Position numbers and translations under genes: made by a program
The notes under the pieces: generated by a model
Databases searched by the model: none
What the model was told of the DNA's origin: nothing
The model's input: only the letters and a program-made list of their open reading frames with translations
Shown: piece after piece, positions 1 through 53,242 of the stretch
Layout of the letters: each line of letters opens with the position of its first letter
Position numbering within the stretch: position 1 is the stretch's first letter
Origin: Thioalkalivibrio sp. ALJT
GTDB lineage: Bacteria > Pseudomonadota > Gammaproteobacteria > Ectothiorhodospirales > Ectothiorhodospiraceae
DNA: 64,000 bases
Direction of reading: 5' to 3'
Assembly (NCBI RefSeq): GCF_000381825.1
Contig: NZ_KB907125.1
Coordinates: 124,001-188,000 of the forward strand

Positions 1-2
1 GG

Positions 3-35
3 CTGCGCAAGACACTGGAAGCGGAGAGTGCATGA
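3..35 (+). CDS. 3' end of an upstream gene (partial)
   Basis: An open frame runs in from before the window and ends at a TGA that overlaps the ATG of the RNA ligase gene (ATGA, 4-bp overlap). Only the last ten residues (LRKTLEAESA) are visible, so the product cannot be identified. The overlap suggests translational coupling with the ligase. That is inference from spacing alone. Confidence 0.55.
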   Translation: MRKTLEAESA

Positions 36-1135
36 TCGACCACGAGACCCTGCAGGACGCCATCACCGCGCACCGGGCCGAGGCCCTGACCTTCGACGGG
101 CTCGAATACGCCCGGCTGCTGGAGCCGGTCAACCACTACCCGCGCGGTTCGGTCGTATTGCCGGATGGCGCAGTGGTGCCGGGCTACCCGTCGATCGGGC
201 GCATCCAGTCACTGGAGGCCGGCCTGCCACGGCAGTTCGAGCAGCCGTTCTGGGCAGAGGAGAAGATCGACGGCTTCAACGTGCGCATCCTGCGCCGGGA
301 TGGCCGAGTCTGCGCCTTCAGTCGGGGCGGCTTTGTGTGCGCCTTCAGCACCGACCGGGTGCCCGATTTCGTGGACCTCGGGGTGTTCGACGCCGAGTCC
401 GACCTGGTGCTGTGCGCGGAGATCGCCGGACCGGATACCCCCTATCTGGAAGGTTCTACGCCGCGCGTCGCACAGGATGTCGGCCTGTTCGTGTTTGACC
501 TGATGCGGCTTGGCCGCCCCGGATTCGTGCCACAGGACGAGAAATTCGCCCTGATGCAGCGCCACCAGCTACCCCCGGCACCCCTGCACGGACGCTTCAC
601 GCCCGCGGACAGCGCAGCCCTCGGGCAGCTGATCCGGCAACTGGATGCGGAAGGGGCCGAGGGGCTGGTACTGAAGACCGCGGACGGCCAGCACCGCGCC
701 AAGTACGTGGCCGGGGGCTCCTGCATCAACGACATCCGCGTGTGCTCCGAGCAGCTGCTGGACCTGCCGCCGGAATACTTCACCAACCGCCTGACCCGCC
801 TGGCGGTGTTCCTCGCGGAGCACCCGCCCAGCGAACGTGCCGCCGTGGAACGGGAACTGGGCGAAGCCCTGCTGTCCGGGCTGGCGACCGCGGTGGACAA
901 GAGCCGGCGCGAGGGGCGCGTCGGCCATACCTACCGCTGCCGCTTCCGCGAGCGCGCGGGGGCACAGCGCTTTATCGACCACATGCAGGCAACCGGCGGG
1001 CGCCACGTGCGCTTCCTGCCGAACACCCCGCGGCAGGAAGAGAGCGGCTACTGGCTGCTGGAGTTCGAGCGCCTGTTCGATCGCATCACCGGCACCCTGG
1101 CCTCGGCCCTGGCGGGTGACCGGCAATACGACTGA
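32..1135 (+). CDS. ATP-dependent RNA ligase, Rnl3 / Pab1020 family
   Basis: A 367-residue nucleotidyltransferase-superfamily ligase, near the usual length for archaeal-type Rnl3 enzymes, which join or circularise RNA through an enzyme-AMP intermediate. Motif I is EEKIDGFNVR, with K78 as the predicted adenylated lysine. Motif III resembles GLFVFDLM (about 151-158), motif IV is EGLVLK (210-215), and motif V contains K224 in RAKYV. The C-terminal ~140 residues match the helical tail expected of the family. The start is fixed by the ATGA overlap with the upstream gene. The convergent neighbour encodes the PIN-domain protein known as the RNA ligase partner, which supports the call. The substrate RNA is unknown. 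A generic DNA ligase is unlikely because no OB-fold or BRCT region is apparent. Confidence 0.85.
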   Translation: MIDHETLQDAITAHRAEALTFDGLEYARLLEPVNHYPRGSVVLPDGAVVPGYPSIGRIQSLEAGLPRQFEQPFWAEEKIDGFNVRILRRDGRVCAFSRGGFVCAFSTDRVPDFVDLGVFDAESDLVLCAEIAGPDTPYLEGSTPRVAQDVGLFVFDLMRLGRPGFVPQDEKFALMQRHQLPPAPLHGRFTPADSAALGQLIRQLDAEGAEGLVLKTADGQHRAKYVAGGSCINDIRVCSEQLLDLPPEYFTNRLTRLAVFLAEHPPSERAAVERELGEALLSGLATAVDKSRREGRVGHTYRCRFRERAGAQRFIDHMQATGGRHVRFLPNTPRQEESGYWLLEFERLFDRITGTLASALAGDRQYD

Positions 1136-1139
1136 GCCC

Positions 1140-1197
1140 TTCGCCTGCAAGCAGGCTCCTGCAAAGCAGGACCTGTAGGAGCCTGCTTGCAGGCGAA
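1140..1197. repeat. REP-like palindrome between convergent genes
   Basis: Two near-identical arms (TTCGCCTGCAAGCAGGCTCC and its reverse complement) surround a short spacer and would form a long hairpin. It lies just after the RNA ligase stop and before the partner gene's stop, so it could terminate both transcripts. The same core (GGAGCCTGCTTGCAGGCGAA) recurs at 52662-52682 and 52964-52984, with a variant at 63186-63209. Confidence 0.8.
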
Positions 1198-1223
1198 CAC
1201 GGGAAAGGCCCCGACTTGCGGCC

Positions 1224-1823
1224 TCAGGCGCTGCCCTGACCGGGGATCCCCGACTCGGAGAGATTCTCCATCACCTGGCGCAGGTAGTCGGCGGTGACCA
1301 GCTTGATGCCCATGCGATTGCCCAGCTTGCGCATGCCCTCGTCGGCGCTGGCCAGCTCGGCATCCAGCTCCATCGCCAGCAGCACGGCATCGACGTCCTC
1401 GCGCGAGTCCACCAGGCCCTTGCGCATCGCCTCACGAAAACGCTCACGCAGCTGCGTGATCAATTCCGGGCGCAGCGAATCGGCCGCCCCCGCCTGGCGG
1501 GTATGCTCCTCGGCGATGCGCAGGCCACGGTCAATGCGGGTGCGCACCTCGTCGATGAACTCGTAGAGGATGTCGCTTGGCAGGGTCAGGGCGAAGCGCC
1601 GCGGCGAGCGCACCCACACCACCGTCTCGAAGTCCGCGGCCAGGGTCTGGAGGTCGCGCATGCCGCGAAACTCGTCATAGACCGAAAGCGGCATGTAGAA
1701 CTCGGCGGGACAGTGCCGAGCCAGGGTGAGAAAGGTCCGCAGGATATCCTCCGGGTCCTCGCCAAACTGTCCGGCCACATGCGGGTTGGTGAAGACGCTG
1801 GTATCGAGCACGAAACGGCGCAT
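1224..1823 (-). CDS. RNA ligase partner protein, PIN domain (MJ_0950 family)
   Basis: A 199-residue protein opening with the PIN-type motif MRRFVLDTSVFTNP (Asp7) and carrying later conserved acidic residues in SREDVDAVLL and VTADYLRQV. This matches the family annotated as RNA ligase partner, MJ_0950 type, which co-occurs with Rnl3 ligases. PIN domains are usually metal-dependent ribonucleases, so a cut-and-join role with the ligase is plausible but not shown here. The ATG was chosen because AGGAGG lies eight bases upstream; longer in-frame extensions lack conservation and run into the divergent HDOD gene's start region. It is convergent with the ligase gene across a REP-like palindrome. Confidence 0.85.
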   Translation of the reverse strand: MRRFVLDTSVFTNPHVAGQFGEDPEDILRTFLTLARHCPAEFYMPLSVYDEFRGMRDLQTLAADFETVVWVRSPRRFALTLPSDILYEFIDEVRTRIDRGLRIAEEHTRQAGAADSLRPELITQLRERFREAMRKGLVDSREDVDAVLLAMELDAELASADEGMRKLGNRMGIKLVTADYLRQVMENLSESGIPGQGSA

Positions 1824-1951: not shown

Positions 1952-2803
1952 TTGGCCACTCGAACGGAAGTTGAACAGTTTCTGGACCGACTGCGTCAGG
2001 ACCTCGAACGCCAACACATCGAGATCCCGACCCTGCCCGACGTGTCGGTGCAGGCACTGTTCATTACACAGGACGCGTCCAGCTCCATTATCGACCTGGT
2101 CAAACTGGTCTCGCGTGACACCGCACTTGCCGCACGGCTGATCCGGCATGCGAACAGCCCGGCCTATCGCGGGCTGTCGCACTGCTCGACCATTCGTTCG
2201 GCGGTGACGCGCCTGGGCATGGAACGCACACGCCAGACCATCATGGCCCTGTCGATGAAGACGGTCTTTCAGAGCGGCAACGAGACCATCCGCGAGCGCA
2301 TGGAGGCTCTGTGGAACCACAGTCTGGAGGTGGCCATCATCAGCTACCTGCTGGCCCGCCGCCACCCCCATCTGGACCCGGATACCGCGCTGCTTGCGGG
2401 CCTGGTCCACGACATCGGCATGATCCCGATCCTGCGCCGCGCGGAGAAGACACCCGAGATCTACGAGGACCCGCGTGCCCTGCAAGCGGCGGCGGATGCT
2501 GCGCATGTCGCGATCGGCCGCGCGATGCTGAAGAGCTGGAACTTCGAGCCCGAGATCATCCGGGCCGTCAGCGAACACGAAAACCTCGACCGCCAGCCGG
2601 AGAGAGGCGCGCCGGTGAACTACTGCGACATCCTGCAGGCCGCGAACATCGAGAGCCACAACGCCACGCAGCATCGCCTGGCCCACATCGACCGCAGCTC
2701 GGTCGCCTCCATCCGCCGTCTGGCGGCCAAGTCCGACACCACCCGCCTGAACTGGGAAGACGACGCGATCGGCCTGGAACACGTCAACCAGATGATTGAA
2801 TGA
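1952..2803 (+). CDS. HDOD domain signalling protein
   Basis: A 283-residue protein with an HDOD fold, a catalytically degenerate relative of HD phosphohydrolases. It begins with a region rich in charged helices, followed by IPTLPDVSVQALFITQD, a typical HDOD opening, and a later LVHDIGMIPIL segment. HDOD proteins act in signalling and c-di-GMP or phosphorelay networks, mostly as protein-interaction modules. The predicted start is TTG with a weak ribosome site; no ATG fits better because the HDOD core begins soon after. It is divergent from the PIN partner gene. The neighbouring BLUF and GGDEF genes suggest a local signalling cluster, but no direct link is visible. Confidence 0.82.
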   Translation: MATRTEVEQFLDRLRQDLERQHIEIPTLPDVSVQALFITQDASSSIIDLVKLVSRDTALAARLIRHANSPAYRGLSHCSTIRSAVTRLGMERTRQTIMALSMKTVFQSGNETIRERMEALWNHSLEVAIISYLLARRHPHLDPDTALLAGLVHDIGMIPILRRAEKTPEIYEDPRALQAAADAAHVAIGRAMLKSWNFEPEIIRAVSEHENLDRQPERGAPVNYCDILQAANIESHNATQHRLAHIDRSSVASIRRLAAKSDTTRLNWEDDAIGLEHVNQMIE

Positions 2804-2857: not shown

Positions 2858-3139
2858 ATGCCCGCCATTCTCCAGCTGCTCTACGCCTCGCGCATCACCT
2901 TCCGCGAGAACGCCTCCAGCCAGGACATCGAGCCCGAAGTCCGCCGCATCCTGATGCAGTCACGCCAGAACGAACCGCGCAGCGGGGTTGTCGGCGCGCT
3001 CTATTACGGGGATGGCGACTTCTTCCAGTGTCTGGAGGGCGAGCCCGAGGCCGTACGCGACACCCTGGAGCGGATCCTGCGTGACGATCGCCACGAGGAG
3101 GTCCGGATATTGCGCGAGCAACCGCCAGGGAAACACTGA
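2858..3139 (+). CDS. Short BLUF-domain (blue-light flavin) protein, C-terminus shortened
   Basis: Ninety-three residues match the BLUF fold, a FAD-binding blue-light sensor. The N-terminal strand holds the photoactive tyrosine (LLYASRITF, Tyr9), and GDFFQCLEGE supplies the conserved glutamine and the LEG motif. BLUF domains normally extend a further strand and helices after the position where this ORF ends (RILREQPPGKH). The stop codon lies inside a palindromic repeat, so the tail may have been cut by repeat insertion. It sits downstream of the HDOD gene and converges on the GGDEF gene, and BLUF proteins often control c-di-GMP enzymes. Whether this short form still folds and binds flavin is uncertain. 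Confidence 0.75.
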   Translation: MPAILQLLYASRITFRENASSQDIEPEVRRILMQSRQNEPRSGVVGALYYGDGDFFQCLEGEPEAVRDTLERILRDDRHEEVRILREQPPGKH

Positions 3140-8354: not shown

Positions 8355-11300
8355 TGGGCACCCCCATGCTTGCCCCGGCCCTGCCCGGTCAGTGGCAGTT
8401 TGAACCAGAAAGTCGCCCCCGCGTCCGGCACGGAGTCGAACCCGACCTCGCCGCCCATGCGCTCCACCAGTTCCCGGGTGATCGCCAGCCCCAGGCCGCT
8501 ACCGCCCTTCTGGCGGGTGTCGGAGGCATCGGCCTGGGAAAACTTCTGGAAGATGCGTTCGCGGAACGCCTCCGGGATCCCGGGTCCGTGATCGATCACC
8601 GAGACGCGCACCCGGGCGCCGTCACGCTCCACCGCCACCCGCACCTCGCCACCCTCCGGCGAGAACTTGGCTGCGTTGGAGAGCAGATTGGCCAGCACCT
8701 GCTGCAGGCGGTCGGCATCCACCTCGACCCGGACCCCGTCGTCCTCCGCATCCAGCATCAGGTGCACCCCGTACGGGTCGGCGTAGCTCTGGTTGCTGCG
8801 CACCGCCTGCTCCAGCAACGGGAACAGCGGCTGCTCTTGCATCTCGAAGCGCATCTTGCCGGCCACCAGCTTTTCCATGTCCAGCAGGTCGTTGATCAGC
8901 AGCCCCAGGCGCTTGCTGTTCTTGTGGGCAATCTCCAGCATCTCCTGCACCCGCTCCGGCAACGCCCCTGCCGCCCCGCCCGTCAGCAGGCCCAGGGCCC
9001 CGGAGATGGACGTGAGCGGCGTGCGCAGCTCGTGGCTGACGGTGGAGATGAACTCGTTTTTCATGCGCTCGATGCGCTTGCGCTCGGAGATATCCTCGAT
9101 AATGGACCAGATCAGTTTGCGACCGGACTTGTCGTGCACGACCATGCCGTTGAGCAGTACGGGATACCGGGTGCCATCCTTGCGGATGTATTCCTTCTCG
9201 TAGGGGCCGTAACGGCCCGTCTGTTCCATGCTCTCCAGTTGCTGCGCTTCCTGCGCTGCGTACTCCCGGGGCGTGACATCCCAGTAGCTGAGTGCAACGA
9301 ACTCCTCGCGGGTATAACCGGTCGGGCGCAACAGGGCCGCGTTGAGATCCACAAACGCCCCGGTCGCGTAATCGTTCAGCGCGATCCCCACCGGTGAGAG
9401 CTCGAACAGCCCCCGCAGGCGGGCCTCGCTGTCCGCGACGGCCAGCTCGGCCTCCTTTTCATCCGTGATATCCCGAATATATCCGTGCCACAGCGTACTG
9501 CCGTCGTCGAGGGGCTCGGGCGAGGCGTGACCCTGCACCCACCCCACGCGACCATCATCCCGCAGGGTGCGATACTCGCAATGCCAGTTGCTCAGTTCCC
9601 GCCGCGACCGTTCGATGGACTGCGCCACCCGATCCCGGTCCTTCGGGTGCAGACGGCGGAACACCGCGCTGGCATCCTCGCGTGCCGCCTCTGCGCTGAT
9701 GCCGTAGATATCCCGGATGCCGGGGCTGCTGTACGGGAAGGCCACGCGGCCGTCCGGCCACTGCCGATACTGATACACCATACCCGGGACCAGTGAGGTC
9801 AGCTTCTTCAACTGCTCGTGCGACTGTTCCCGCTCCAGGCTCGCGGCCACCCAGCGCCCCAACAGACGCACGAACATGCGTTCACCCTCGCTGAACGCGG
9901 CCGGTCTGGGGTGCGCCGACGAAAAGTTCAGGGTGCCAAAGCGCTGTCCCTCAACCTCCAGCACGACACCGATGTAGGCTTCCAGGCCGAAGTCCGCGTA
10001 ACACGGGTGGCCCTGGTGCTCGGACGCGCCCATGTGCTCGATCGTCAACAGGTCGTTGTGTGCAAGGGTCAGCGCACAGTAGGTACGCCCGAGCGCAAAG
10101 CGCTGACCACGCTCAAGGGGGGCACCAGCCGGCGCGACGAACGCCCGCACCGTATAGTCGTCGCCGCGGATCCGGCTGACGATGCCCAGTTCCAGCCCCA
10201 GAAAGTCGGCCCCCGTTTGTAGCGCGCGCTCGAGCTGGTCATCGAGGTCCAGGGCCACCAGGGATGCAATCTCGTTGAGCGCCGCGAACGCGTCCAGCTG
10301 GCGTTGATGCTGTTCACGATGGTCCCGTTCCCGAGTCACATCGAGGATGAAGCCGTCGAGGTAGCGTACTCGACCATCCGGATCACGAATGGCGGAGCCC
10401 CGTTCCTGGGCCCAGCGGATACTGCCGTCACAATGCCGAATACGGTATTCAACGGACCAGTCGTTGCCGGCGCTCAAGGCCTGCTCCACCGCATCCTCGA
10501 GTCGTGCCCGGTCATCCGCGTGGATCACGCTGGCGTAACTGCGCACGGCATTGTCGATGAAGTCGCTGGCAGGATAGCCCGACAGCGGATCCACCTGGTC
10601 GCTCATGTAGAGCATGGTCCAGTCCGAATCCGGCAGGCAGCGATAGGTGATTCCGGGGATATTGTCGACCAGCGAGCGGAACTGTTGCTCGCTCTCGCGG
10701 ATCCGTTCGGCATCCTCGCGTTCCCGGGTCACATCGGACTCGATCGCGATGAACCCCTGCAACATCCCCTGCTCGTCGCGCAATGGAGTGCAGTCGATCC
10801 GCACCCAGTACGGATGGCCGTCGATGTGATAGTTCAACAGATCTTCAACGAATGGTTCGCCGCGCGCCAGCGCCCCACCGATCCGGGCTACCGCCTCCGG
10901 ATCGGTCCCGACACCCTGCAACAGTTCACCCGGCTTGCGGCCAAGCATTGCGTCCAGGGTATAGCCACTCAAGCGGGTAAAGCCGTCGTTGATCCACTCA
11001 ACCCGGCCATCGGCGTTGGTAATGATCACGCCATTGGTCGTCTCGCTCGCCACCCGGGACAGCCGCACCCGCTCCAACTCGCCCGCCCGGTAACGACGAC
11101 GAGTGCGAGCCGCATCCACCAACTGCCCCAGCGTGGCGAGCAGCGGCTGGAGAAACTCCACCAGTTCCGGGTCGTAGCCACCCGGACGGTTGGCGATCCC
11201 CAGCACGGCGATCCGCTCGCCCCCGTGCTCGATGGGTATCCCCAGAAAGGCCTTGAGCGGCGGATGTCCTTCGGGCAAGCCCCCGCTGCGCGGGTCTCCG

Positions 11301-12205
11301 GCGGGGTCATTGGCAATCACCGGCCCCGCGCCGGTCAGGGCCGCGCCGAACAGGGTCTCCAGGTTGTGAAACTCCGACCCCTGGGGTGCGTTGGCCGCGT
11401 AGATGGCGCGGGTCGCGTCATCCCAGGCGATATTGGTGATGGCACTGGTCTTGAGGTAAGGCGAACCTTCAGGCGTGTGCAGTACCTCTCCGATAAAGCC
11501 GTATTCGCTGTGGGTCAGCTCGAGGATATCCGCCAGCAGTCCGTCAAAGACCTGCCCACGGTCCTGATCGGCATCGCGAATGAACGCCGACTGCGCACGG
11601 GTAATCACCTCGCCAAGCTGCCGCAGATCGGTCAGCGCATTGCCAAGCGCCCGTTGCTCGGTGGAATCGATTTCCGCCTCGACCGCATCGGCGAGGTCAC
11701 GCAGGGAGCGTCGCTCGTCCTCGCTCAACTGCCGCGGCCGGCCGTCGATCAGGCAAAGCGTCCCGATCCGGTAACCGTCGGCGGTTGTCAGTGGCGCACC
11801 GGCGTAGAACCGGATCTGCGGCTCCCCGGTCACCAGTGGGTTGTCGGCAAACCGGGCGTCCGCGCGCGCATCGGGAATCTCGAAGATATCGCCCCCGAGA
11901 ATCGTATGCCCGCAAAAGGAGACATCACGCCCGGTCTCCGCCACCTCGAGACCCTGCCGCGACTTGAACCACTGCCGGTCCTCGTCCACCAGCGAAACCA
12001 GCGCGATGGACACCCCGAACATCCGCCGCGCCAGACGCGTCAGTCGGTCGAACCGCTCCTCAGCCGCGGTATCCAGCAGCCCTCGAGTCCGCAGCGCTCG
12101 CAGCCGCTCTTTTTCGTCGCCGGGGCAGGGAGGCGTTTTCAACAGAATTGGACCACGCACGACTCGGGGATACCCGATACTGCCACGTCCGGCTTTCTGC
12201 CCCAA
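8351..12205 (-). CDS. Multi-GAF/PAS soluble histidine kinase
   Basis: A large kinase of up to 1284 residues with no clear membrane segment. The N-terminal GAF domain has the ELDTxxEERFD-type opening (LLDTAAEERFDRLTRLA) and FCGHTI. A second GAF (about 190-365) follows, then two PAS regions, a third GAF (about 640-790) and two further PAS regions. HisKA (His1058 in SHELRTPL) and HATPase (NLLSNAAKF, GGSGLGLAI) end it. The catalytic half is strikingly similar to the kinase encoded next, indicating duplication with sensor replacement. The start is uncertain: the TTG at 12205 lacks a strong ribosome site, and an internal start shortly before PPCPGDEKERL is possible. It lies 24 bp after guaA, which may be read through. 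Confidence 0.87.
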   Translation of the reverse strand: MGQKAGRGSIGYPRVVRGPILLKTPPCPGDEKERLRALRTRGLLDTAAEERFDRLTRLARRMFGVSIALVSLVDEDRQWFKSRQGLEVAETGRDVSFCGHTILGGDIFEIPDARADARFADNPLVTGEPQIRFYAGAPLTTADGYRIGTLCLIDGRPRQLSEDERRSLRDLADAVEAEIDSTEQRALGNALTDLRQLGEVITRAQSAFIRDADQDRGQVFDGLLADILELTHSEYGFIGEVLHTPEGSPYLKTSAITNIAWDDATRAIYAANAPQGSEFHNLETLFGAALTGAGPVIANDPAGDPRSGGLPEGHPPLKAFLGIPIEHGGERIAVLGIANRPGGYDPELVEFLQPLLATLGQLVDAARTRRRYRAGELERVRLSRVASETTNGVIITNADGRVEWINDGFTRLSGYTLDAMLGRKPGELLQGVGTDPEAVARIGGALARGEPFVEDLLNYHIDGHPYWVRIDCTPLRDEQGMLQGFIAIESDVTREREDAERIRESEQQFRSLVDNIPGITYRCLPDSDWTMLYMSDQVDPLSGYPASDFIDNAVRSYASVIHADDRARLEDAVEQALSAGNDWSVEYRIRHCDGSIRWAQERGSAIRDPDGRVRYLDGFILDVTRERDHREQHQRQLDAFAALNEIASLVALDLDDQLERALQTGADFLGLELGIVSRIRGDDYTVRAFVAPAGAPLERGQRFALGRTYCALTLAHNDLLTIEHMGASEHQGHPCYADFGLEAYIGVVLEVEGQRFGTLNFSSAHPRPAAFSEGERMFVRLLGRWVAASLEREQSHEQLKKLTSLVPGMVYQYRQWPDGRVAFPYSSPGIRDIYGISAEAAREDASAVFRRLHPKDRDRVAQSIERSRRELSNWHCEYRTLRDDGRVGWVQGHASPEPLDDGSTLWHGYIRDITDEKEAELAVADSEARLRGLFELSPVGIALNDYATGAFVDLNAALLRPTGYTREEFVALSYWDVTPREYAAQEAQQLESMEQTGRYGPYEKEYIRKDGTRYPVLLNGMVVHDKSGRKLIWSIIEDISERKRIERMKNEFISTVSHELRTPLTSISGALGLLTGGAAGALPERVQEMLEIAHKNSKRLGLLINDLLDMEKLVAGKMRFEMQEQPLFPLLEQAVRSNQSYADPYGVHLMLDAEDDGVRVEVDADRLQQVLANLLSNAAKFSPEGGEVRVAVERDGARVRVSVIDHGPGIPEAFRERIFQKFSQADASDTRQKGGSGLGLAITRELVERMGGEVGFDSVPDAGATFWFKLPLTGQGRGKHGGAQ

Positions 12206-52638: not shown

Positions 52639-53242
52639 TCCGGTGTTGTCCGAGCACCTGAAGGAGCCTGCTTGCAGGCGAAGCCCCTGCCAGACCCGAC
52701 CCTGCCTACCCGTGCCGCTTGGTATGTCGCGTGGCCGGCGCATTCCAAGGGTCCTCCGGCCAGGGGTGCTTTGGATAGCGCCCCTTCAGCTCGCGGCGCA
52801 CCTCCGGATAGCCGTTCTCCCAGAAGCTGGCGAGATCCTGGGTCACCTGCACCGGGCGCCGCGCCGGCGACAGCAGGTGCAGCACCAGCGCCACGCGGCC
52901 GCCCCCCACTCGGGGCGTCTCGCCCAGGCCGAACAACTCCTCCGGTGTTGTCCGAGCACCTGAAGGAGCCTGCTTGCAGGCGAAGCCCCTGCCAGACCCG
53001 ACCCTGCCTACCCGTGCCGCTTGGTATGTCGCGTGGCCGGCGCATTCCAAGGGTCCTCCGGCCAGGGGTGCTTTGGATAGCGCCCCTTCAGCTCGCGGCG
53101 CACCTCCGGATAGCCGTTCTCCCAGAAGCTGGCGAGATCCTGGGTCACCTGCACCGGGCGCCGCGCCGGCGACAGCAGGTGCAGCACCAGCGCCACGCGG
53201 CCGCCCCCCACTCGGGGCGTCTCGCCCAGGCCGAACAACTCC
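52639..53242. repeat. Exact 302-bp tandem duplication covering the hrpB 3' end
   Basis: Two direct copies (52639-52940 and 52941-53242) appear identical by eye. Each contains a REP-like GGAGCCTGCTTGCAGGCGAA, the hrpB stop and the last ~78 codons of hrpB. The unit is not a multiple of three. A true recent duplication or an assembly join are both possible. The flanking 52401-52638 stretch holds no gene. Confidence 0.85.
52706..52940 (-). pseudogene. Duplicated 3' fragment of hrpB
   Basis: The outer copy of the duplication repeats the HrpB C-terminal coding region from about GLGETPRVGGGRVALVLHLL to ATRHTKRHG and its stop. It lacks a start, ribosome site and upstream helicase domains. It is joined to the intact hrpB end by a frame-breaking junction at 52940/52941. 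Confidence 0.8.

Follow-up and report, generated by a model that had tools for sequence, protein, structure and literature searches.

Genes for HARP, a protein-only ribonuclease P (RNase P), and for Rnl3-type RNA ligases are frequently found in the same genomes, a linkage published in 2025 by Seshadri & Gopalan in mBio (PMC12153264), the sole match to the phrase "RNA ligase partner" in the literature searched. In their census Rnl3 was present in 665 of 751 HARP genomes, both genes occurred predominantly in extremophiles, and Thioalkalivibrio was listed among the HARP genera. Of the 164 bacterial pairs 127 lay within 5 kb, and the orientation of HARP and Rnl3 genes was described as "typically bidirectional"; the ideas offered were parallel selection, a toxin-antitoxin function, C/D box RNA maturation and 5'-adenylation (PMC12153264). 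Archaeal Rnl is reported to join 5'-phosphate to 3'-hydroxyl ends, with a preference for terminal-stem RNAs that hold the ends together, and to circularise such RNAs in vivo and in vitro; knockout of the Thermococcus enzyme is reported to abolish the circles of C/D box small RNAs (sRNAs), and the archaeal MthRnl also to make 2',3'-cyclic phosphate ends (PMC9014305). Here we analyse such a pair at the start of a 64,000-nucleotide stretch of Thioalkalivibrio sp. ALJT (contig NZ_KB907125.1, positions 124,001 to 188,000; hereafter the window). An earlier note on this DNA, made without database searches, had pointed out the pair and called it mainly archaeal, in agreement with the published census of 573 archaeal and 178 bacterial HARPs (PMC12153264).

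An Rnl3 ligase gene facing a HARP gene

The ligase gene lies on the forward strand (window 32-1135) and encodes an Rnl3 (Pab1020-type) ATP-dependent RNA ligase of 367 residues. In profile searches the open reading frame (ORF) scored 273.9 bits against TIGR01209 "RNA ligase" (cut-off 136.9), and it exceeded the Pfam cut-offs for RNA_ligase (PF09414) and for Lig_C, the Pab1020 C-terminal region (PF18330). The closest solved ligase by sequence was Protein Data Bank (PDB) entry 3qwu (E=1.4e-88, residues 1-367), and Pab1020 itself (PDB 2vug) matched residues 20-362 (E=1.2e-63). K78, E210, G211, V213 and K215 of the EGLVLK motif (210-215), and K224 were invariant in 15 aligned ligases; the protein combines the nucleotidyltransferase motifs with the Pab1020-type C-terminal domain. 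Both the family and the motif positions had been read correctly from the letters in the earlier note. The Pfam search of the ligase ORF found no end-healing domain.

The gene facing it on the reverse strand (window 1224-1823) encodes a PIN_5 protein of 199 residues, which scored 216.4 bits against TIGR03875 "RNA ligase partner protein" (cut-off 95.3), 205.1 bits against PF08745 (cut-off 27) and 303.8 bits against NF003344 (cut-off 241). All seven of its significant PDB matches are named "RNA-free ribonuclease P", the best being 7og5 (E=2.7e-78, residues 2-190), presumably the HARP of Halorhodospira halophila (Hhal2243), an enzyme whose structure is described in PMC8266387. Residues D7, D139, D143, D161, R126 and R130 were invariant among 17 aligned HARPs of the window's class. 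For Aq880, the Aquifex HARP, the catalytic residues are given as D7, D138, D142 and D161 and the spike-helix arginines as R125 and R129 (PMC8266387). Judged by position and conservation, and with Aq880 itself outside the alignment, the window protein keeps all four catalytic aspartates and both arginines. These matches identify the partner of the ligase, from its sequence, as a HARP, a predicted protein-only RNase P. Checking both proteins against family models, as the earlier note had suggested, thus placed each above the cut-off of its family. Its assignment of the partner to the PIN-fold "RNA ligase partner" family held, as did the non-random pairing described below; the identity of this family as HARP, and the published linkage, had been overlooked.

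The two genes converge, with 88 bases between their stop codons. The REP-like palindrome noticed earlier at this junction is a 24-base inverted repeat of a dispersed REP (repetitive extragenic palindromic) family: it spans positions 1140-1197, with arms at 1140-1163 and 1174-1197 that are 96% complementary and separated by 10 bases. Two further REP core copies lie in the window (52662-52678 and 52964-52980), and across the 2.66-Mb genome the family gave 78 matches, many of them both strands of one palindrome. In other Thioalkalivibrio loci the HARP-ligase gap measured 13-28 bases and was without the REP palindrome. We rejected the palindrome as a functional element of the module, since its family is dispersed and it is missing from most relatives' gaps; it is a dispersed repeat, incidental to the HARP-Rnl3 pair. 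Among relatives, three stages of the junction could be recognised, with no palindrome, with one short palindrome (strains ALE14, ALE31 and ALJ7), or with a long one (AKL19, ALJ16 and the window).

Co-retention and tail-to-tail arrangement

Co-occurrence was counted in order, class and genome-contig samples, which overlap in genomes and whose counts are not additive. In the order sample (47 genomes) HARP was found in 29 and the ligase in 30 genomes, all belonging to one genus of 30, Thioalkalivibrio, where HARP is accordingly present in 29/30 and the ligase in 30/30 genomes. The one genome with a ligase but no HARP has a completeness of 66%, and its ligase is at a contig end. In 27 of the 29 genomes with both genes these were tail-to-tail neighbours; in G012 and G022 they were on separate contigs. 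In the class sample (369 genomes) HARP was detected in 17 genomes and the ligase, above cut-off, in 15, all of them shared; three ligase matches below the cut-off (G082, G316 and G398, the last a C-terminal fragment) were left uncounted. Shared pairs occurred in 13/13 HARP-bearing families, and 12 of the 15 pairs were likewise tail-to-tail neighbours, the other three being on different contigs. The tabulation for gammaproteobacteria proposed in the earlier note therefore yields a co-occurrence beyond chance (hypergeometric P=7e-25, phylogeny ignored).

A second set was formed by the best 80 of 115 confirmed HARP relatives in named bacterial records, and therefore favours bacteria close to the query. 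The ligase was present in 74 of these 80 HARP-bearing genomes, a few times as a fragment above cut-off, and it lay inside the fetched HARP stretch in 53 of the 80 loci (in one, L114, as a fragment at a contig end). In every one of the 53 linked bacterial loci it was on the opposite strand, on the 3' side of HARP. The coding ends overlapped by 4-54 bases in 24 of them; gaps were 0-100 bases in another 24, 100-300 in three and more than 300 in two. With crude ORF calling, 128 of 710 other neighbour pairs in the HARP stretches were convergent. Of these, 83 also overlapped, although spurious ORFs in GC-rich DNA swamp this control; overlap was dropped as a special signal, and we claim only the constant orientation. 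The tail-to-tail arrangement is no universal rule, because 10 co-linear cases, one of them bacterial, have been reported (PMC12153264). Where no adjacent ligase was seen, in 27 HARP genomes, 21 carried it elsewhere in the genome, some as fragments. HARP was further found on five haloarchaeal plasmids of 0.43-0.99 Mb. Two of them (L146 and L147) also carry the ligase, here head to head with HARP, the annotated starts being 98 and 121 bases apart; on the other three a search of the plasmid found no ligase. At least two HARP-ligase gene arrangements therefore exist.

All-against-all clustering of the neighbours in the 80 loci placed the ligase in 52 (the 53rd being the fragment), followed by a cluster in 21 loci that merges histidine kinases and sigma-54 activators; the remaining clusters reached at most nine loci each. 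No other gene is as widely shared as the ligase among HARP loci.

Quick trees were built for HARP and for the ligase from 74 rows, 72 bacterial and two haloarchaeal, leaving out L114 and L109 (a ligase fragment without a locus). Linkage must have changed at least 10 times on each of the two trees; for the arrangement one change is enough, and a single tail-to-tail origin suffices within bacteria. HARP and ligase distances were correlated both for 52 linked pairs (Mantel r 0.92) and for 20 unlinked ones (r 0.90), as well as for the 20 linked pairs that come from neither Thioalkalivibrio nor Aquificota (r 0.78), and in each of the three sets 0 of 2000 permutations gave a value as high.

The ligase was found together with HARP both in genomes with a recognisable ribozyme RNase P and in genomes where none was detected. 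A search for rnpB, restricted to type A and with stricter filters, covered 77 of the 80 HARP genomes and was positive in 36 of 45 genomes outside Aquificota and in 0/32 Aquificota. Incompleteness is the likely cause of the nine misses outside Aquificota, since all are metagenome-assembled genomes. The ligase was missing in 5/32 Aquificota versus 1/48 other genomes (Fisher P=0.035, uncorrected for kinship); perhaps it can be lost somewhat more readily where no ribozyme accompanies HARP. One record labelled Acidobacteria (L132, RFFP01000017.1) has its HARP and ligase inside the Aquificota clade in both trees, and no rnpB was found in it. It is probably a mislabelled or mixed bin and, given the position of its HARP, we grouped it with Aquificota in the counts.

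A candidate cut-and-join module and its rivals

In the window's genome, searches detected rnpB of bacterial type A (330.5 bits) as well as rnpA (95.6 bits), so HARP is not its sole RNase P. Of the 42 tRNA genes, 37 could be read and all 37 encode the 3' CCA. For Hydrogenobacter Hth1307, a bacterial HARP, CCA-bearing pre-tRNA is reported to be cleaved tenfold more slowly (PMC10652100). Given rnpB, rnpA and the CCA in all readable tRNA genes, the HARP of this genome seems ill adapted to general pre-tRNA processing. RtcB was not found there, by a search for this ligase family alone that was positive in 9 of 14 control genomes.

The reading we favour, to which we give a probability of roughly 0.4, is a two-enzyme RNA-processing module in which a stem-ended RNA, cut by HARP to give a 5'-phosphate, is circularised or resealed by Rnl3. 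HARP, by homology a dodecameric PIN nuclease, would cut a tRNA-like or terminal-stem RNA once at its base, in a metal-dependent reaction that yields a 5'-monophosphate; Rnl3 would then join this end to a 3'-hydroxyl held close by the terminal stem. By homology HARP belongs to the metal-dependent hydrolases and attacks the 5' base of an acceptor-like stem. Such hydrolases leave 5'-phosphates, and archaeal Rnl prefers terminal-stem RNAs with 5'-phosphate and 3'-hydroxyl ends, so the products of the first enzyme should be chemically and geometrically fit for the second. The RNA-based RNase P would meanwhile do the housekeeping tRNA work, and the pair would act on a special RNA subset and not on bulk pre-tRNA. 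We infer the activity of these two proteins as well as the hand-over, the kind of substrate and the physiological role. The cut-and-reseal idea of the earlier note fits the enzyme chemistry. Its proposed readout by 2',3'-cyclic-phosphate RNAs appears less direct, because Rnl joins 5'-phosphate to 3'-hydroxyl, even though the cyclic ends made by MthRnl leave it some point.

Several observations weigh against this reading. HARP and ligase genes were co-directional in 0/53 linked bacterial loci and therefore do not form one operon, and no ligase was found in 6 of the 80 HARP genomes. The trees are weak, with support below 80 at 31 of 70 inner branches for HARP and 22 of 71 for the ligase, and their congruence is also expected if both genes merely follow the same hosts. 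No bacterial substrate is on record for the pair. C/D box sRNAs, the archaeal substrate, are not known to occur in bacteria; the bacterial substrate must therefore differ, and the archaeal model cannot be transferred as it stands. The Palaeococcus Rnl3 is reported to show strong adenylation but weak ligation, as cited in PMC12153264. On the nuclease side, several HARPs are reported to cleave pre-tRNA to some extent (PMC10941002), and the effect of CCA comes from one HARP only, so that a tRNA role may apply. For the HARPs of H. halophila and Thioalkalivibrio nitratireducens, a failure to process pre-tRNA in a 2023 study is cited in PMC12153264; for H. halophila this conflicts with PMC8266387, where its HARP is reported as active.

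A more ambitious form of the favoured reading, which we consider doubtful, is a dedicated bacterial circular-RNA pathway. HARP, mainly not acting as RNase P in ribozyme hosts, would make the 5' ends of small terminal-stem RNAs (tRNA-like, SRP/4.5S-like or of unknown kind) and Rnl3 would close the circles, while the tail-to-tail and often overlapping genes would give mutually antisense mRNAs that tune the ratio of cutting to joining.

The strongest competitor is parallel selection without any hand-over, an idea put forward in PMC12153264: heat, salt or alkali would damage RNA and RNA-based enzymes, HARP would serve as a back-up protein-only RNase P and Rnl3 in RNA repair. The predominance of both genes in extremophiles (PMC12153264), the pre-tRNA cleavage reported for several HARPs (PMC10941002) and the lack of type A rnpB in 32/32 Aquificota searched speak for it. 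It leaves aside the fixed tail-to-tail adjacency in 53/80 loci, where no other neighbour is as widely shared, and it agrees poorly with the CCA encoded in all readable tRNA genes of the window's genome. Moreover, alkaline hydrolysis of RNA leaves 2',3'-cyclic phosphate and 5'-hydroxyl ends, and an Rnl without a healing domain, such as this ORF by its Pfam matches, is not expected to join them. On balance we hold parallel selection to be somewhat unlikely, yet closer to the two-enzyme module than any other rival.

Neutral co-inheritance, with the pair spreading or persisting as a compact cassette whose genes are not functionally coupled, is a good deal less probable. One tail-to-tail origin, a single change, explains all bacterial loci seen, and the two sets of distances agree closely (Mantel r 0.92). 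A cassette does not readily account for the retention of both genes in 21/27 non-adjacent genomes, for at least 10 changes in linkage, or for the second, head-to-head arrangement of the two haloarchaeal plasmids. Still less credit can be given to a 5'-adenylation cycle, also from PMC12153264, in which Rnl3 under stress would adenylate pre-tRNA 5' ends as a protective cap and HARP would later remove the capped leader. Such a cycle needs no new substrate and agrees with the report of a Palaeococcus enzyme strong in adenylation and weak in ligation (as cited in PMC12153264). It fits poorly with the CCA-encoding tRNAs found here, given the effect of CCA on the Hydrogenobacter HARP (PMC10652100). 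There is also a chemical obstacle: primary RNA 5' ends are triphosphates, which are not ligase substrates unless first trimmed. Finally, a toxin-antitoxin or cut-and-repair defence unit, with HARP damaging tRNA on a trigger and Rnl3 repairing it, would suit a two-gene unit and the assignment of HARP to the VapC-like PIN group (PMC12153264), but it is highly improbable in view of the absence of any PADLOC match and of relatives in viral contigs (pattern scans) or phage records, the restriction of plasmid matches to haloarchaea, the presence of HARP in 29/30 genomes of the genus, unlike mobile defence, and the lack of growth defect, under the conditions tested, of harp knockouts in two archaea and of a Thermococcus ligase knockout (PMC12153264). 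A mobile or viral origin was likewise rejected: these viral and phage searches found no relative, and plasmid matches occurred only in the five haloarchaeal plasmids.

For the puzzle of a second RNase P, made of protein only, that certain bacteria retain alongside the ribozyme, its tie to an RNA-circularising ligase is a strong clue. The HARP-Rnl3 association is one of an RNA-cutting and an RNA-joining enzyme kept together in many extremophile microbes, and its bacterial function should be testable in Thioalkalivibrio, where nearly every genome has both genes. Since this organism has both RNase P types and gave no RtcB match, circular or religated RNAs that depend on the ligase could be assigned with little background.

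Neighbouring genes and comparison with described systems

Upstream, the stop codon of a Na/Pi-cotransporter gene and the ligase start share bases (ATGA); the 3' end of the transporter gene occupies window positions 1-35 on the forward strand. In the fetched locus L004 (C5:112001-128000; the window begins at C5:124001), this transporter gene lies at 10353-12035, preceded by a gene for a beta-CASP RNA nuclease at 8931-10331; their Pfam matches are PF02690 and PF10996. The ligase is probably co-transcribed with both in this strain. Neither was retained as a third partner of the module, as the beta-CASP gene recurs in 3/80 loci (L069, L072, L100) and the transporter in 2/80 (L069, L070). On the other side, divergent from HARP, Pfam matches identified a gene for an HDOD-domain protein (window 1952-2803), followed by one for a short BLUF (blue-light FAD sensor) protein (2858-3139).

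A few small neighbour clusters cross lineages, at variable distance and strand, among them an ABC transporter (6 loci) and MnmE (5 loci). Sixteen loci of two unrelated lineages have sigma-54 activators directly flanking the pair, on opposite sides: beside the HARP 5' end in eight Aquificaceae loci (for instance L126, 8569-9960, reverse strand), and beyond the ligase 5' end in eight Thioalkalivibrio loci (for instance L081, 5532-6896, forward strand). Pfam was run on one activator per lineage. The two lineages' activators are 47% identical over 306 residues, which is ordinary between sigma-54 activators. They recall RtcR, the sigma-54 activator of the rtcBA RNA-repair operon of E. coli. However, a scan of the 300 bases upstream of HARP and of the ligase revealed no consistent -24/-12 site, and for this reason no sigma-54 regulation is claimed.

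tRNA genes were also rejected as recurrent HARP neighbours, a tRNA or tmRNA gene being inside 14 of 80 stretches without general pattern. All four Methylothermaceae loci have a tRNA-Gly (CCC) gene about 0.3-1.7 kb 5' of HARP and in the same orientation (L098, 5566-5639; L099, 1195-1268; L111, 9078-9151; L137, 560-633). This may reflect a local substrate or plain synteny.

Among characterised proteins, Pab1020 (PDB 2vug), MthRnl and TkoRnl share with the window ligase the Rnl3 domains, including the Pab1020 C-terminal region, and the motifs. Their hosts are archaea, and their known circular product, C/D box sRNA, is one that bacteria are not expected to make. PDB 3qwu was deposited as "DNA ligase" and is, we assume, from Aquifex; if so, it comes from a host group without detectable type A rnpB, unlike the window's genome. 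On the HARP side, Hhal2243 has the same catalytic aspartates and spike-helix arginines; it is reported to cleave pre-tRNA (PMC8266387), whereas the window HARP is known here from its sequence. The linkage described by Seshadri & Gopalan concerns the same two families, the same genus and the same co-occurrence as here, but their paper centres on archaeal C/D box RNA. To it we add the constant tail-to-tail orientation of the linked bacterial loci, the head-to-head pairs of two haloarchaeal plasmids, the retention of both genes when unlinked, and the CCA, rnpB and RtcB status of the window's genome. The pair is thus real and had been correctly seen; its core was already published, and it is here better defined for bacteria.

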